64,000 nucleotides of DNA. Origin: Actinotalea sp. JY-7876. Its GTDB lineage: Bacteria > Actinomycetota > Actinomycetes > Actinomycetales > Cellulomonadaceae. Below, one piece after another: positions 4,002 to 17,490 of this stretch. Within the stretch, counting starts at the first letter, position 1. Every line of letters begins with the position of its first letter. Where the stretch lies: the NCBI RefSeq assembly GCF_014042015.1, contig NZ_CP059493.1, forward strand, positions 3,100,001 to 3,164,000. The letters run 5' to 3'. The translations under genes were made by a program, and so were the position numbers. The notes under the pieces were generated by a model, which worked only from the letters and a program-made list of their open reading frames with translations, was not told where the DNA came from and made no database searches.

Positions 4002-6044
4002 TCAGAAGCGGCCGCCACCGCCGCGGCGGCGCGAGCTCGAGCTGCGCTTGCTCGAGCTCGACCGGCGGCTGGAGCTGCTGCGGCTCGAGCTGCTGCGGCC
4101 CGAGCTCGACCGGCGGCTCGAGCTCGAGCGCCGGGAGGAGCCGCCGGACCAGCTGCTGCTGCGCGAGGACCCGCCCCACGACCAGCCGCTGCTCCCGCTC
4201 CCGCCCCAGCCGCTGCCGCCGCCCCAGCTGCTGTCGTCGTCGTCGGAGCGCCAGCGGTACTCGGACACGCCCGAGGGCTGGTACTCGAGGCGACGTCGGT
4301 CCGCGTCGACGTCGTCCTGCGCGGCCCGCCGGGCGCGCGCGACCTCGTGCTCCGCGCGGTCCGCGGCGGCGAGCGCCGCGACCGGGTCCGACGTCGCCAG
4401 GCCCCGGGCCTCGGCGAGCGAGCGCTCGCCCTCCACGAGGCGCGTGCGCGCGCCCGAGCGCACGACGGCGCCGTGCGCCGCGATCAGGCCGTTCACGCCG
4501 ACGACGGCGGAGTCGACGCGCGGCAGGACCTCGGCCAGCCGCGCCTGCGCCCGGGTGACCGCCTGCTCGCGCTCGCGCAGCGGCATGAGGGCGGCGTCCA
4601 GGGCGGCCTCGGCCTCGGTGAGGCGAGCGAGCAGCGCGAGCGGGTCGCCCGTGGTCCGCTCGCTCGCGGCCTGCGCGACGACGGCGCGGGCGGCCGTCGC
4701 GGCCGCGCCGACGGCGGGGTCCGCCGCGCCGAGCCGGTCGGCGTCGGCGAGGTCACCGGCGAGCGAGGCGAGGCCGGCGTCGATGCGCGCCGGGGCCTGC
4801 GCGAGCTGCTCCCCGGCGGCACCCAGCGCGTCGAGCAGGGCGAGCGCGCGGGCCACGCCCTCCTCGGCGGTCCGCGCGTAGCTCACGGCGGCGGCCCGGT
4901 CGGTCTCGACGACGACCTGCCCCTGGCGCACCGCTGTCGCGGCCTGGCCCAGCAGCGCCGTCGCTCCCCCGACGTTCTCGACCACCGAGGCCAGCGCCTC
5001 CGGCGGGTAGCCGGCCGCGAGCGTGTCGAGCGTGGCCTGGGCCGCGGGCAGGCGCTGCTCCGCCTCGCGCACGCGGGCGTCGAGCTCCGCGAGCGTCTGC
5101 GGCGCACGCGCGTGCAGGTCGCGCAGCTGCGCGAAGGCCTCGGTCTGCGCGTCCAGGGTCGCGTCGACCTCGTCGCACAGCCGGAGCACCTCGACCAGCG
5201 CCTCGCGACGCTGCTCGGGCGTCTCCGGCTCGTCGTCGTCGAGGCTGCGGCGCAGCGCGAACGCGCGCGTGAGCGACGCCTTGGCCGACGCGAGGGCCTC
5301 GTCGAACGTGCGCGTGGCCTCCACGCCGAACTGCGCCTGGGCGAAGCCGAGCTCCTGCTCCGACGCCCGCACGGCCTCGTCGACGGCGACGAGCGAGGTC
5401 CCCGCGCGCTTCTCGAGCTCCTCGGTCGTGAGCGCCTGCGGACGCGTGCCGGCGTCGGCGGCCCGGCGCGCGGTCCGCCGCCGGTGCGCGAGCCACAGCC
5501 CACCCGCGACGACGACGGCGGTGCCGCCGACCAGCGGCAGCGCCGACGGGCCGCCGGTGGCCGCGTCGCGGTAGCCGTCGGCCGCGGCGATCGCGGCCTC
5601 GGCCCAGTCGTCGTCGGCCAGGTGCGGCTCGATGTCGTCGGTCTCGACGTCGTGCAGCTGGTCGTCGGTCAGGCCGATCTCGTCGTGCGCCGAGACGCGG
5701 TACTCGCGGTCCTCGACGGCGACGGCGAGCAGCAGGTCGTCCCTGCCCAGGCCGGACAGGGTGGCCGTCTCGTCGGTCCAGTCGAAGGCGTCCAGGGCGT
5801 CGAACGTCTCGACGTAGACGACGAAGAGCTGGTAGTCGGTCTCGTCCTCGAGCCGCTCCAGCGCCGCCTCGACCCGGTTCTCGTCGCCGGTGGTCAGCAC
5901 GCCGGCGAGGTCGGTCACCTTCTCGCGCAGGTCCTGGGGCGGCTCGGCCGCGGCCGGCCCGGCGAGGGCGAGGCCCGCGAGCGCGGTCCCCGCCACCAGG
6001 GCGGCCGACGTCGTGCGGGCGTGGGGGCGTGGGCGTCGCAGCAC
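4002..6044 (-). CDS. TPM-domain membrane protein with long helical region and Ser/Arg-rich C-terminal tail
   Basis: About 680 residues from GTG 6044. The start is chosen because it places a signal peptide (basic RRPRPHAR, hydrophobic stretch, cleavage near AAAEPP) at the N-terminus. Residues about 40-160 form a TPM domain (DLAGVLTTGDENRVEAALER, DDLLLAVAVEDREYRVSAH), a family linked to photosystem repair in plants and often called TPM_phosphatase; its bacterial role is unclear. One transmembrane helix lies at about 168-187 (ALPLVGGTAVVVAGGLWLAH). About 400 alanine/glutamate-rich residues that look alpha-helical or coiled-coil follow. The last 80 or so residues are tryptophan/glycine/serine then repeated RSSSS-type blocks ending in GGGGRF. 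Expected topology is an exported TPM domain with a cytoplasmic helical part and basic tail. Confidence 0.82.
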   Translation of the reverse strand: MLRRPRPHARTTSAALVAGTALAGLALAGPAAAEPPQDLREKVTDLAGVLTTGDENRVEAALERLEDETDYQLFVVYVETFDALDAFDWTDETATLSGLGRDDLLLAVAVEDREYRVSAHDEIGLTDDQLHDVETDDIEPHLADDDWAEAAIAAADGYRDAATGGPSALPLVGGTAVVVAGGLWLAHRRRTARRAADAGTRPQALTTEELEKRAGTSLVAVDEAVRASEQELGFAQAQFGVEATRTFDEALASAKASLTRAFALRRSLDDDEPETPEQRREALVEVLRLCDEVDATLDAQTEAFAQLRDLHARAPQTLAELDARVREAEQRLPAAQATLDTLAAGYPPEALASVVENVGGATALLGQAATAVRQGQVVVETDRAAAVSYARTAEEGVARALALLDALGAAGEQLAQAPARIDAGLASLAGDLADADRLGAADPAVGAAATAARAVVAQAASERTTGDPLALLARLTEAEAALDAALMPLREREQAVTRAQARLAEVLPRVDSAVVGVNGLIAAHGAVVRSGARTRLVEGERSLAEARGLATSDPVAALAAADRAEHEVARARRAAQDDVDADRRRLEYQPSGVSEYRWRSDDDDSSWGGGSGWGGSGSSGWSWGGSSRSSSWSGGSSRRSSSSRRSSSGRSSSSRSSSSRRSSSSKRSSSSRRRGGGGRF

Positions 6045-6187
6045 CCCCGGATCGTCCCGTCCCGGGGCACCGACGGCAACACCCCGGACGCACCCGGACG
6101 AAAGTCGGGCGCCGCGGGACTCCACACCGGGACGCCGAGCCGCGTTCTGAGGGGGTACGGATCACCGCACCGACCCAGGAGGTCACG

Positions 6188-6745
6188 ATGAACGAGAGCA
6201 CCACACCCCGCACGCCCGCCCGCCCCCGCAAGCGCCTGGTGACGATCGGCCTCGTCGCCGCCGGCCTGTCCGTCGCCGGCGCGGGAGCGGCCGCCGCCGT
6301 CGCGCCGCACACCCCGGTCTCGCAGGCCGTCCGTGGCGCGCTCAGCGCCGTGGGGGTCGAGTGGACCACCGGGACCGACGGCGCCACGGCGCTCACCCCC
6401 GACTCCGAGGCTCGGCTGAACGCGTTCTGGGAGGCGGGGTACACGTCCAACGACGCGCAGGCCCTGGTGGACCTGTGGCACACCGACACGCTGGACGCCA
6501 AGGCCAAGGCCGGGCAGCTCGTCCTCGACGGCCAGGCGGTGCCGTTCGCGCCGGGCACGCACCCCGACGAGCCGGTGCTCTCCACCGACGCCTTCTGGGA
6601 GGCGGGCTACACGTACGCCGACGCCGAGGCGCTCGCCGCCCTGTGGGGCACGGACGTGGTCGAGACCAAGACCGCTGCGGCGCAGAAGCTCGCCGCCGGC
6701 GAGACGCTCCCGATCGCTCCCGGCACCTCCGCCCCCGCGTCCTGA
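6188..6745 (+). CDS. Membrane-anchored or secreted protein with two FWxAGY repeats (first gene of sigma/amidoligase operon)
   Basis: A 185-residue protein whose ATG follows a strong AGGAGG (6177-6182). A basic N-terminus (RPRKR) and one hydrophobic helix at 17-39 indicate an N-in/C-out anchor or signal peptide. The rest holds two copies of a roughly 45-residue repeat, at 78-124 and 135-180. Each has FWEAGYT, then D-A-x-A-L, L-W, a K-x-x-A-x-x-L segment, and ends P-x-A-P-G-T. The same repeat pair, and the preceding segment ending in V-G-V-E-W, recur in the fourth gene of this operon. I do not recognise a named domain. Its position ahead of an amidoligase and a sigma factor suggests it is a substrate, target or sensor in that system; this is inference. 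Confidence 0.75.
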   Translation: MNESTTPRTPARPRKRLVTIGLVAAGLSVAGAGAAAAVAPHTPVSQAVRGALSAVGVEWTTGTDGATALTPDSEARLNAFWEAGYTSNDAQALVDLWHTDTLDAKAKAGQLVLDGQAVPFAPGTHPDEPVLSTDAFWEAGYTYADAEALAALWGTDVVETKTAAAQKLAAGETLPIAPGTSAPAS

Positions 6746-6785
6746 CCGCTCGCCCGGCACCGCCGACCGCCCGCTGAGGAGACCC

Positions 6786-7874
6786 ATGATCGACGTGCAC
6801 GAGCTGTCGCTGCGCACCGGCTTCGAGATCGAGCTGCTGGCGCCCGCCGGATCGGACCGGCAGGTGCTCGCGGCGGAGCTGGCCGCGTGCGCCGGCGGAC
6901 GCGTCGAGCGGTCGTTCCACACGGACAGCGAGCCGTCGGCGGTGCCGGGGGTGGGCGTCTTCCGGCACCTGTCCCCCGCGTTCGACGTCGTCGACGCGGC
7001 GGGGCGGCCGGTCGCGCGCCTGGTCGACGACATCACGATCGCGGCTGACCTCGCCGGCCACCCCGGCGGCGCCGGGCACCGGGGCTGGTACCGGGTGCTG
7101 AGCGACGACGCGCGGCTGCTGCGCCTGGTCGAGCGGTACGCCGACCCGGGCGCGTCCATGGCCGCGGTCCTCGAGCCGGTCGCGGCGCTGTTCGGCATAC
7201 CGGCCGAGGTGCTGCCCGCCGCGACGCGCCTCAACGACGAGCGGGGCGCCACGATCGCGATCGCGCTCCCCCTGCCGGCGGGCCGCGAGCGACCGTGCGA
7301 GATCGTCACGCCGCCGATCGCGTCCGGCCACACCGCGGCGCTCGAGGCGCTGCTCGGTCCGGCGCGCGAGCTGGGCTTCACGGTCCCGCACGAGGCCGCC
7401 GTCCACCTGCACGTCGACGGGGCCCCGTTCCGCGAGGTGCCCGCCTTCGCGAACGTGGTGCGGCTGTTCGCCCACTGGCGCGAGGTGCTGTGGGAGGCGC
7501 TCGGCACCAACCCCGCGTGCCGCCGCCTCGCCCCCCTGCCGGATGACCTGGTCGAGCTCGTGGACCGCCCCTGGGAGGACGACTCCGCCCGCACCGGCTG
7601 GGAGCGTCTGCGGCAGGCGGCGCGGTCGACGGGGGTGACCAAGTACGCCGACGTGAACCTCACGCAGCTGCTCTCGGACCGCCCGGTCCGCGACACCCTG
7701 GAGGTGAGGATCCTGCCCGGAGCCGACCACGCCCACGCGATCGTCTCGCGCGCCGCCGTCGTGGAGGCGCTGCTGCGCCGCTGCCGCGACCCGGAGCCCC
7801 TGCCGCTGCCGGGTGCGACGGCGGCTCGGGACCCGCTGGACGCGCTCGACACCCTCGTGGCGGTGCGCCGATGA
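6786..7874 (+). CDS. Putative amidoligase (COOH-NH2 ligase, glutamine-synthetase-like fold)
   Basis: A 362-residue cytosolic protein with GAGGAG ahead of its ATG. Motifs match the Amidoligase_2 family: TGFEIE (11-16), a metal/ATP-binding acidic motif; CEIVTPP (171-177); HLHVDG (207-212); KYADVNL (286-292); and TLEVRILPG (304-312). Family members are predicted to form amide bonds between a carboxylate and an amine using ATP, making small peptides or modifying proteins (described by Iyer, Aravind and colleagues). The gene starts 40 bases after the repeat protein and its stop overlaps the sigma-factor start (ATGA), so all are likely one transcript. The substrate is unknown. An operon-encoded repeat protein rich in exposed carboxylates or lysines is one possibility. 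Confidence 0.8.
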   Translation: MIDVHELSLRTGFEIELLAPAGSDRQVLAAELAACAGGRVERSFHTDSEPSAVPGVGVFRHLSPAFDVVDAAGRPVARLVDDITIAADLAGHPGGAGHRGWYRVLSDDARLLRLVERYADPGASMAAVLEPVAALFGIPAEVLPAATRLNDERGATIAIALPLPAGRERPCEIVTPPIASGHTAALEALLGPARELGFTVPHEAAVHLHVDGAPFREVPAFANVVRLFAHWREVLWEALGTNPACRRLAPLPDDLVELVDRPWEDDSARTGWERLRQAARSTGVTKYADVNLTQLLSDRPVRDTLEVRILPGADHAHAIVSRAAVVEALLRRCRDPEPLPLPGATAARDPLDALDTLVAVRR

Positions 7875-8485
7875 CCACCTGGACGGGCGCGCGCGGCCCC
7901 GACAGCGCCGAGCTCCCCCTGCCGCCGAGGGCGCTCCTGCGTCCCGTCGCCACCGCGCGCCCGCGCGAGGCGCCCGACGCCGTCGGGCGCCGGCTGGACG
8001 ACGTCGTCCGCGCGCACCTGCCCGGGCTGCTGCGCTACGCGACGGTCCTCACGGGCGACGGGCACACGGCGGCCGACATCGTGCAGGAGGTGCTGCTCCG
8101 GGCGCACGTGCGCTGGGGGCGGATCGCCCTGCTCGACCGGCCCGACCTGTACCTGCGGCGCATGGTGACCAACGAGCACCTGTCCTGGCGGCGGCGGTGG
8201 CACGTGCGCACGGTCCGGCCGACCGACGACGACGTGCTCGCCACCCACGCCGAGCCGCGCAGCGACCACGCGGAGCACGTGGTCGAGGACGACGAGATGT
8301 GGCGCCGCCTCGCCGTGCTGCCCCCGCGGCAGCGCGCGGTGCTGGTGCTCCGGTACTACGAGGGCCTCGGCGACGCGGAGATCGGCGCCGTCCTCGGCAC
8401 GACCGCCGCCACGGTCCGCTCCCACGCCTCCCGCGCGCTGTCCACGCTGCGGTCCCAGCCCTCGAACCCCACGGAGACGCCATGA
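7871..8485 (+). CDS. SigE-family (ECF-type) RNA polymerase sigma factor
   Basis: 204 residues. Region 2 (YATVLTGDGHTAADIVQEVL, then LYLRRMVTNEHLSWRRR) and region 4 (LPPRQRAVLVLRYYEGL, then GTTAATVRSHASRAL) are typical of the actinobacterial SigE family of small group 4 sigma factors. It has an N-terminal extension of about 40 residues before region 2. The ATG overlaps the amidoligase stop by 4 bases, and its own stop overlaps the next gene's start by 4 bases. Tight coupling of this kind usually marks a sigma factor with its cognate regulator, so the following membrane protein is a candidate anti-sigma factor or signal receiver. The target promoters are unknown; autoregulation of this operon is plausible. 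Confidence 0.9.
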   Translation: MTTWTGARGPDSAELPLPPRALLRPVATARPREAPDAVGRRLDDVVRAHLPGLLRYATVLTGDGHTAADIVQEVLLRAHVRWGRIALLDRPDLYLRRMVTNEHLSWRRRWHVRTVRPTDDDVLATHAEPRSDHAEHVVEDDEMWRRLAVLPPRQRAVLVLRYYEGLGDAEIGAVLGTTAATVRSHASRALSTLRSQPSNPTETP

Positions 8486-9270
8486 GCACCGACCCGCTCC
8501 CGATGCGCCGGCACGACGACGACGTCGTGCGCCTCCACCCGGCCTCCCTCCCCGACGACGAGCTCGCCGCGCGGATCGCGCGCGCGCTGCGCTCGCGCCC
8601 GGTGGCCGGTCCCGACCCCGCCGTCGTGACCGCGCGCCTGGAGGCGCAGCTCGCGGCGACCGCACAGGGCCCGTCGCGGCGCGCCGCGGCCACGCGCCGC
8701 GTCGTCGTCGCAGGGGTCGTCGGCTCCTCGATCGCCGTCGCGGGCGCCGGCGCGGCCGCCGCGTGGGACCCGTACTCGGGTGCGTCCCGCACGGTCGAGA
8801 CCGTCGCGCAGGCCGTGGGACTCGAGTGGTCACCGCTCCCGGGCGACTACACGTTCGAGCAGCACGACGCGTTCTGGGGCGCCGGCTACACGAGCGGCGA
8901 CCTGAAGGCCCTCGTCGACCTGTGGGGCGTCGAGTCGATCGAGACGAAGGCCCGGGCCGGTCAGCTCATCCTCGACGGTGAGCCCGTCCCGGTCGCCGCC
9001 GGGACGTATCCCGAGCTCGAGGCCCCGCCGCGCGCCCCGGACGCTCCGGCTCCGACGGCTCCCCCCGCGGCCGGCGCCCCGTCCGGTGCGGACGATCTGG
9101 CGCCCGCCGCCTTCTTCGACGCCGGCTACGGGTACGAGGACGCGCTCGCCCTCGGGGAGCTGTGGGGGACCGAGATCGACGAGACCAAGGCCACCGCCGC
9201 ACGGATGCTCGAGGCCGGCGAGCCCCTGCCGTTCGCGCCCGGGGAGGGCGACGAGGTGCCCGCCGGCTGA
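8482..9270 (+). CDS. Single-pass membrane protein with two FWxAGY repeats, sigma-coupled (putative anti-sigma/sensor)
   Basis: 262 residues, starting at an ATG overlapping the sigma stop. Residues 1-70 form a cytoplasmic acidic/helical segment (LPDDELAARIARALRSR), 74-94 a transmembrane helix rich in valine and alanine. The outside part carries two repeats like those in the first operon gene: 130-175 (FWGAGYTSGD, LVDLWG, GQLILDG) and 210-255 (FFDAGYGYED, GELWGT, AGEPLPFAPG), joined by a proline/alanine linker (176-209). Layout and position right after the sigma gene fit a transmembrane anti-sigma or regulatory protein, but the short cytoplasmic part has no zinc-binding HxxxCxxC motif, so this role is inferred. 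Its stop lies 4 bases from the convergent chemotaxis gene. Confidence 0.78.
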   Translation: MSTDPLPMRRHDDDVVRLHPASLPDDELAARIARALRSRPVAGPDPAVVTARLEAQLAATAQGPSRRAAATRRVVVAGVVGSSIAVAGAGAAAAWDPYSGASRTVETVAQAVGLEWSPLPGDYTFEQHDAFWGAGYTSGDLKALVDLWGVESIETKARAGQLILDGEPVPVAAGTYPELEAPPRAPDAPAPTAPPAAGAPSGADDLAPAAFFDAGYGYEDALALGELWGTEIDETKATAARMLEAGEPLPFAPGEGDEVPAG

Positions 9271-11952: not shown

Positions 11953-12828
11953 GTGAAGGTCTTCGTTAGTTGGTCCGGGACGGCGAGCCGCGACCTCGCG
12001 GAGTCGCTTCGTTGGTGGCTACCGAAAGTAATTCAGGGCACCACCCCGTTCGTGTCCGCGAAGGACATCGACAAGGGGGCCACCTGGACAAGTGTCCTGA
12101 GTTCCGAACTAAGTGACACCGACTTCGGAATCATCTGCGTCACGCCGGAGAACGTTGCCTCACCTTGGTTGAATTACGAAGCGGGAGCGATCAGCAAGTC
12201 GGTCGACTCGCGCACCTGCCCAGTGCTGCTCGGCGTTCGCAAGAATGACCTCACGGGACCACTAAAGCAACTGCAGGTAACGTCGCTCGAGTTTGACGAC
12301 ATGCTCCTGCTTCTTCGATCCCTCAACAAGGCGGCAGGCGGCGCCCTGCTCGACGCGGATCTTGAGGAGCAAGCGCGGATGTGGTGGCCTCGCCTCGAAG
12401 AGCGGATTCAAGCCATCGTCGTTCCTCCCGCTACCGAAGCCCTCGTGGCAACTCCGGAACCCGTCAAGCCCGAGTCCTCTGAATCCGAGATGCTGCTTGA
12501 AGTTCTCGGGCATGTTAGGGAAGTCTCTCGTCGAGTTGCCAGAATGGACCGCCGGGAAGGCCAGCCCAGCCGTTCCGTGCCTTGGCAGCATGATTTCGTT
12601 GCAGCATTGCACACCTACGGACTGTTAGTCACGGACACCACGACGGGTAGTTCGATCATTGAATTCAAGTGCTCCACGGATGCTATCCCGCCTGTACTCC
12701 CGGGTCGAACTTGGGCGATGCTCGCAGAACTTGCCCGCTCTCGGGGGAAGACCGTCAAGTTGTCCGACTTCAGCGGACGTGAAGTGGTGTTCGGGCCTGA
12801 CGGCTCGGCGAGCGAGCCTCCTTTCTAG
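11953..12828 (+). CDS. TIR-domain protein (probable NAD-consuming defence effector)
   Basis: 291 residues from GTG 11953, preceded by AGAGGGG. Residues 1-150 are a bacterial TIR domain: KVFVSWSG at the N-terminus, PFVSAKDIDKGATW, DFGIICVTPENV, and SPWLNYEAGAI, where Glu76 matches the catalytic glutamate of TIR NADases. After about residue 150 there is a linker and a C-terminal region (about 190-291) I cannot assign. TIR proteins of this kind typically act in anti-phage defence by cleaving NAD+ or making signal nucleotides. No partner gene adjoins it. Three 60-base stretches I counted by hand are 53-60% GC, far below the flanks, suggesting horizontal acquisition. Confidence 0.88.
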   Translation: MKVFVSWSGTASRDLAESLRWWLPKVIQGTTPFVSAKDIDKGATWTSVLSSELSDTDFGIICVTPENVASPWLNYEAGAISKSVDSRTCPVLLGVRKNDLTGPLKQLQVTSLEFDDMLLLLRSLNKAAGGALLDADLEEQARMWWPRLEERIQAIVVPPATEALVATPEPVKPESSESEMLLEVLGHVREVSRRVARMDRREGQPSRSVPWQHDFVAALHTYGLLVTDTTTGSSIIEFKCSTDAIPPVLPGRTWAMLAELARSRGKTVKLSDFSGREVVFGPDGSASEPPF

Positions 12829-17420: not shown

Positions 17421-17480
17421 GCACCGCACCGCACCGCACCGCACCGCACCGCACCGCACCGCACCGCACCGCACCGCACC
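17421..17480. repeat. Pentanucleotide tandem repeat (GCACC)12
   Basis: Exactly twelve uninterrupted copies of GCACC (60 bases), ten bases after the stop codon of the small minus-strand membrane gene. The tract is a simple-sequence repeat prone to length change. It is outside coding sequence, so any effect would be on the 3' end of that transcript. Confidence 0.95.
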
Positions 17481-17490
17481 GACGGTGGAG

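Follow-up and report, generated by a model that had tools for sequence, protein, structure and literature searches.

The window analysed here, a stretch of 64,000 nucleotides from the 3.55 Mb single-contig genome of Actinotalea sp. JY-7876 (Cellulomonadaceae), carries one four-gene operon on the forward strand, which codes for two repeat proteins, one amidoligase and one sigma factor. Gene A (6188–6745) encodes a protein of 185 residues; its translation, the alignment of orthologues and the topology read by eye mark it as an exported protein, with a short basic tail, a hydrophobic signal or transmembrane (TM) segment and an AxA-like end at the N-terminus. Gene B (6786–7874) encodes the 362-residue amidoligase, identified by translation, Pfam and fold match; its start could be either the ATG at 6786 or the GTG at 6795. 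Gene C (7871–8485) encodes a 204-residue sigma factor of the extracytoplasmic function (ECF) type, assigned by family models, and gene D (8482–9270) encodes a protein of 262 residues, a predicted anti-sigma factor and sensor on the basis of its translation and predicted structure. The four genes are collinear, with 4-base ATGA overlaps between B and C and between C and D. One predicted binding site for sigma factor C, CTCCACA-N15-GCGTTCT, lies before A at 6120–6148 (+). By their coordinates and by comparison, the genes are coupled translationally or adjacent, under one conserved ECF-type promoter.

A and D share one repeat of about 45–50 residues, which is present in two copies in each protein. 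The A copies (6407–6556 and 6575–6724) were placed by repeat comparison and profile match; the D copies span 8854–9003 and 9094–9243. In the D model, each copy is a three-helix unit, formed by helices 125–133, 138–148 and 152–164 in the first and by helices 207–213, 218–228 and 232–244 in the second; conserved Asp and Lys residues lie close to where helices 2 and 3 begin. With D as the query, a genome-scale search retrieved A at an E value of 4e-25, so the duplicated repeat that a reading of the sequence alone (hereafter the sequence-only reading) had assigned to both proteins is real. Trp and Pro are invariant and Lys is near-invariant (207 of the 209 distinct repeats), with the conservation of Trp and Lys near 100%. 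The number of repeats varies from 1 to 4 per protein across loci.

The repeat matched no known family in these searches. No Pfam family passed its cut-off for the window proteins or for five further natural proteins, none was reported for the window D at an E value of 0.05, and among 35 D proteins the same threshold gave five scattered weak families, each in one or two members. The PDB provided no convincing fold match. CW_7 (PF08230), which is likewise a small helical unit repeated in tandem and also has a stretch like AGYDY, was considered and rejected: it was unlisted for the five natural proteins and three artificial permuted peptides (E value of 10, HMMER filters on) and for the 35 D proteins (to 0.05), and CW_7 itself matched none of 148 genomes of the class. 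Standalone two-repeat proteins with signal sequences were also observed (L085, L086, L087, L088, L089, L090, L034 at 1616–2203 and L041 at 6794–7372). In several genomes of the Cellulomonas family, they are found either at a distance from the operon or immediately behind it; they retain the conserved lysine, and no obvious promoter copy was visible by eye directly upstream of them.

The layout of the operon is conserved. Among 200 genomes of the family, the repeat was found in 46 (D as query, E value 0.001) and the amidoligase in 41 (profile, E value 1e-10), all 41 being within the 46. Thirty-five of the 41 carry the four genes contiguously, four are cut by contig ends (G064, G125, G175 and G195), and the other two are G131 and G089; the repeat-positive genomes lacking the amidoligase are G053, G133, G139, G173 (marginal, 9e-4) and G189. 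In total, 39 of the 61 sequences examined carry A, B, C and D side by side in this order, the window and four loci from named genomes (L037, L041, L042 and L049) included, and the remaining 22 are cut, show the distant order described below, or were fetched as exceptions or standalone repeat genes. The B/C overlap is exact in 39/39 and the C/D overlap is present in 36/39. Because the four genes stay together with conserved overlaps in 39 loci, the layout is not due to chance, and the tight coupling and the co-occurrence outside this genome that had been at stake in the sequence-only reading are both confirmed. The Quadrisphaera locus (L052), which is outside the 39, has the same order; its amidoligase is divided between two reading frames.

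C scores 77.7 against the general ECF model TIGR02937 (cut-off 42.9). Its best NCBIfam subfamily is the SigE-family model TIGR02983, which matches 13/13 aligned C sequences at 1e-20 or better; however, the window C falls narrowly under the cut-off of that model (136.7 versus 141.55), so the earlier SigE label holds as nearest subfamily and not as full membership. Strong support for sigma control of the operon came from the DNA before A. The motif CTSCACA-N15/16-RCGTY precedes A in 44/47 repeat-amidoligase loci, 37 of them with a stricter -10 end; 200 rounds of base shuffling gave a mean of 0.02 loci and a maximum of 1. The 44 include Quadrisphaera; the Kineococcus locus, which lacked upstream DNA, was not counted. 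Three loci have no such motif: G064, G089 and the second copy in G159. The strict pattern CTSCACAN{14,17}RCGTYNT has a single match in the Actinotalea genome, the site at 6120–6148, with 2 matches for the backward control. In 45 relatives, it lies just upstream of A in 33 (by eye), including G189 and G133, where A stands alone; the total of 98 matches compared to 124 for the backward control indicates no excess of strict sites elsewhere. Such a pattern would be the expected trace of an ECF sigma factor that regulates itself and serves chiefly its own operon, and would leave room for weaker targets. Very probably, then, C mainly drives the operon that encodes it.

Two further features were noticed around the promoter. 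The leader that follows the -10 element (window about 6149–6187) is alike across genera by eye, with a GGGGGCA-GCACATCC-like sequence, and the similarity exceeds the needs of a ribosome-binding site. On the other strand, one divergent TPM-domain gene (4005–6125, −; 84.1 bits versus 22.1) encodes a protein with a Ser/Arg/Gly-rich tail, and its 5′ end overlaps or abuts the operon promoter region.

The D model contains about 70 N-terminal residues with helices 25–38 and 46–61, followed by helix 71–95 and then by the repeats. Some class I anti-sigma factors carry a zinc motif; this type was excluded for D, which has no cysteine and hence no Hx3Cx2C motif. In the class II (CnrY-like) anti-sigma factors, as described in PMC7406223, two short cytosolic helices of fewer than about 50 residues are followed by a single TM helix. 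The sequence-only reading considered the repeat-protein pair to be unlike a usual sigma/anti-sigma pair; D is not so far from an anti-sigma factor, its predicted layout being of the short two-helix membrane kind. With one short two-helix cytosolic part, one TM helix and the repeats outside, D is probably the anti-sigma factor of C. The envelope location of the system agrees with the predicted topology, namely helix 71–95 of D (low in predicted local distance difference test score, pLDDT) and the signal-like N-terminus of A.

B matches Amidoligase_2 (PF12224) with 61.1 bits, far above the cut-off of 22, which settles its family as first named; the family was matched by 21/21 aligned B sequences (E value 0.001 or better, window included), and no other Pfam family was found for B at an E value of 1 or better. 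Glu14, Glu16, Asp47, Glu172, His207, His209 and Arg308, which we take to be active-site or catalytic residues, are invariant in all 21. A glutamine-synthetase- and GCS-like fold is the defining link of the Amidoligase_2 family, and B is predicted by modelling to have the ligase fold of the glutamine synthetase (GS) superfamily. Dop, from the Pup system, is one of several fold matches that tie. B has no export signal by eye and belongs to an ATP-requiring fold class; it is predicted to be cytosolic, with the repeats outside the membrane.

Outside the family, the amidoligase keeps its partner. Among 394 genomes of the class, the repeat profile and the amidoligase profile each matched five, the same five (the Actinotalea genome included), in agreement with the co-occurrence expected from the outset. 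The general PF12224 profile was positive in 5/207 class genomes, again these five, and in every one the Amidoligase_2 gene adjoins the repeat protein gene. Three distant class genomes have the order sigma factor, four-repeat D and amidoligase, with similar sites (TTACAC ... GCRTCTT) before the sigma gene in two of the three by eye; in a fourth, the contig starts inside the repeat gene. From this gene order, the repeat gene stands directly before the amidoligase in both arrangements, and it is the sigma gene that has moved. Among 396 genomes of the phylum, the positives were the Actinotalea genome and G846 of another class (1e-8). In G846, a four-repeat protein with a signal-like N-terminus shares an ATGA overlap with the amidoligase, and the sigma profile matched nothing within the 13 kb fetched; the second copy in G159 (L083) likewise consists of repeat and amidoligase genes only. 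Since the pair occurs without a nearby sigma gene in G846 and L083, we read the repeat protein and the ligase as the core, and the sigma factor and D as the usual controller, present in most loci seen.

Based on these data, we tentatively favour, at somewhat less than even confidence, a cell-envelope module that regulates itself and comprises a writer, a reader and a sensor. C would mainly drive its own operon, so that a sigma response yields more A, B, C and D. B, in the cytosol, would amidate a carboxylate group of an envelope precursor, the amide serving as the mark; the repeats, with their conserved aromatic residues and lysine, would bind the marked molecule outside. A would be the secreted binder and D the membrane-held sensor copy of the reader, and occupancy of the D repeats would hold or release C, so that operon output tracks the amount of the mark. 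Given the predicted compartments, with B inside and the repeats outside, the simplest scheme places marking inside, binding by A outside and reporting by D to C. Judged by the sequence comparisons, the control logic is well supported. Confidence in the chemical part is low; that B marks, the repeats bind and D occupancy controls C has weak support, and the same data would also fit an action of B on A or D ahead of export. Put more broadly, the repeat protein and the amidoligase could form an undescribed covalent marking system of the actinobacterial envelope, in which a GS-fold ligase places an amide mark, either on a wall molecule or on the repeats themselves, a new three-helix repeat reads it, and a sensor copy of this reader fused to an anti-sigma factor lets the mark control its own synthesis; this is possible, and we would not call it probable. 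The original proposal of an envelope system is thus upheld for the conserved unit, the topology and the sigma control; the proposed tagging or cross-linking of the repeat proteins is not directly supported.

Several observations weigh against this reading. The promoter motif was first spotted by eye in the same sequences in which it was later counted, and because these loci share ancestry, the 44 do not count as independent events. The N-terminal helices of D have block means of 64–78 and the TM helix 49–71, and the predicted template modelling score (pTM) of the whole model is 0.48. The distances of C and the D N-terminus correlate (partial rho 0.31 beyond the amidoligase background in 39 loci, compared to 0.19 and -0.01 for the D repeats and 0.08 for A), but the correlation is modest, carries no significance test and is no more than suggestive. 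Profile searches gave no connection of the repeats to a known wall-binding family. Broken or partial units also exist. G089 (L080) has B and a remnant of A, with no sigma factor or D, which either argues against strict dependence of the ligase on A or indicates a decaying locus. G131 (L082) has B, with A 6.9 kb away and damaged sigma and D genes, and one G171 copy (L091) misses most of A by eye; despite the decay of A or of sigma and D, the amidoligase frame is still open in L080, L082 and L091. G189 and G133 have A and the promoter with no amidoligase in the 10–12 kb fetched, and G053 has a repeat stretch with no B within 8 kb. G131 and the second G159 copy, where the pair has no working controller beside it, are in line with the pair acting as the effector.

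In one alternative explanation, a sharper form of the proposal in the sequence-only reading, B would create an amide bond on the repeat proteins themselves ahead of their export, perhaps at the near-invariant lysine of each repeat; A and D would then be surface proteins that are modified, tagged or cross-linked. A repeat gene immediately precedes the amidoligase in almost every locus, whichever the gene order and even when there is no sigma gene, which fits this proposal, as do the lysine kept in 207/209 distinct repeats, the Dop match among the tied fold matches of B, and the lack of a conserved helper pathway among the 14 largest clusters of flanking genes, all of which come from Cellulomonas loci only. 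However, B lacks an export signal and its fold depends on ATP as a class, whereas the repeats are predicted outside; the twin-arginine pair of A is missing in several relatives, so export in the folded state is not supported. The positions of Asp and Lys in the model, close to where helices 2 and 3 begin, are not suggestive of an internal Asp-Lys bond, and standalone repeat proteins that keep the lysine are encoded away from any amidoligase. We regard modification of the repeat proteins as rather unlikely.

B might instead release its product, a small amide or dipeptide, which A binds and D senses in a circuit of signalling or self-protection. Enzymes like GS, glutamate-cysteine ligase (GCS) and YbdK use small amino acids as substrates, and the fold of B matches this kind; the patchy distribution of the system (41/200 family and 5/394 class genomes) would also suit such a circuit. 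On the other hand, the 14 largest flanking clusters contain no exporter or further biosynthetic gene beyond Cellulomonas, and the plasmid collection gave no match, which leaves the small-molecule circuit improbable. The operon could also be an ordinary ECF stress operon, with D as a plain anti-sigma factor, the repeats as spacers or adhesive stalks and B as an unrelated passenger enzyme. An ECF sigma factor with a membrane anti-sigma factor is a common layout according to PMC7406223, and the repeat number does vary from 1 to 4. Yet the presence of repeat and amidoligase agrees in 5/5 class genomes and in 41/41 amidoligase-bearing family genomes, the pair is also found without a sigma gene beside it (L083 and L139), and conservation of Trp and Lys near 100% is unexpected for a spacer. 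An ordinary stress operon of this kind is quite improbable in our view.

Compared with known systems, the operon resembles the ECF and class II (CnrY-like) anti-sigma pairs in its co-encoded partners and self-promoter and, as predicted for D, in the short two-helix cytosolic part and the single TM helix. It differs from them in that the outside part of D is a three-helix repeat shared with A, and in that an amidoligase is encoded in the operon. The Pup ligase and depupylase (PafA/Dop), along with other carboxylate-amine ligases of the GS fold, are also near; membership of B in the Pup ligase family was rejected, since Pfam reports Amidoligase_2 alone at an E value of 1 or better and the likeness is one of fold only. 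The window A and D have no GGE or GGQ ends, presumably the tail motif of Pup; no search was aimed at a Pup-like partner. No account of the four-gene system was found in the open-access literature, judged on titles and abstract openings. What is new, from sequence comparison, is the conserved, predicted ECF-type promoter before A and the putative core of repeat protein and amidoligase that also occurs in another class with no nearby sigma gene; from modelling, it is a D whose predicted layout is like that of the class II-like anti-sigma factors with two helices, and a B that models as a ligase of the glutamine synthetase superfamily.

Two other features of the window were recorded downstream. 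The gene at 11953–12828 (+) encodes a TIR_2-domain protein (Pfam 40.2 bits versus 28), residues 1–190 of which match the PADLOC TIR-TM model at 8.6e-62; this gene, close to the operon, is possibly a defence gene. At 17421–17481 lies a perfect GCACC tandem array (12.2 copies, 100% matches), possibly a simple-sequence tract able to vary in length.

For the Amidoligase_2 family, the operon provides a testable context, with a constant protein partner, a sigma factor that appears to be dedicated to the unit, and natural loss variants. One repeat family that passes no Pfam cut-off is now defined, and the promoter, with its single strict match in the genome, could serve as a reporter. As the candidate anti-sigma factor shares its outside domain with another exported protein encoded in the same operon, the arrangement makes a clear prediction of feedback.
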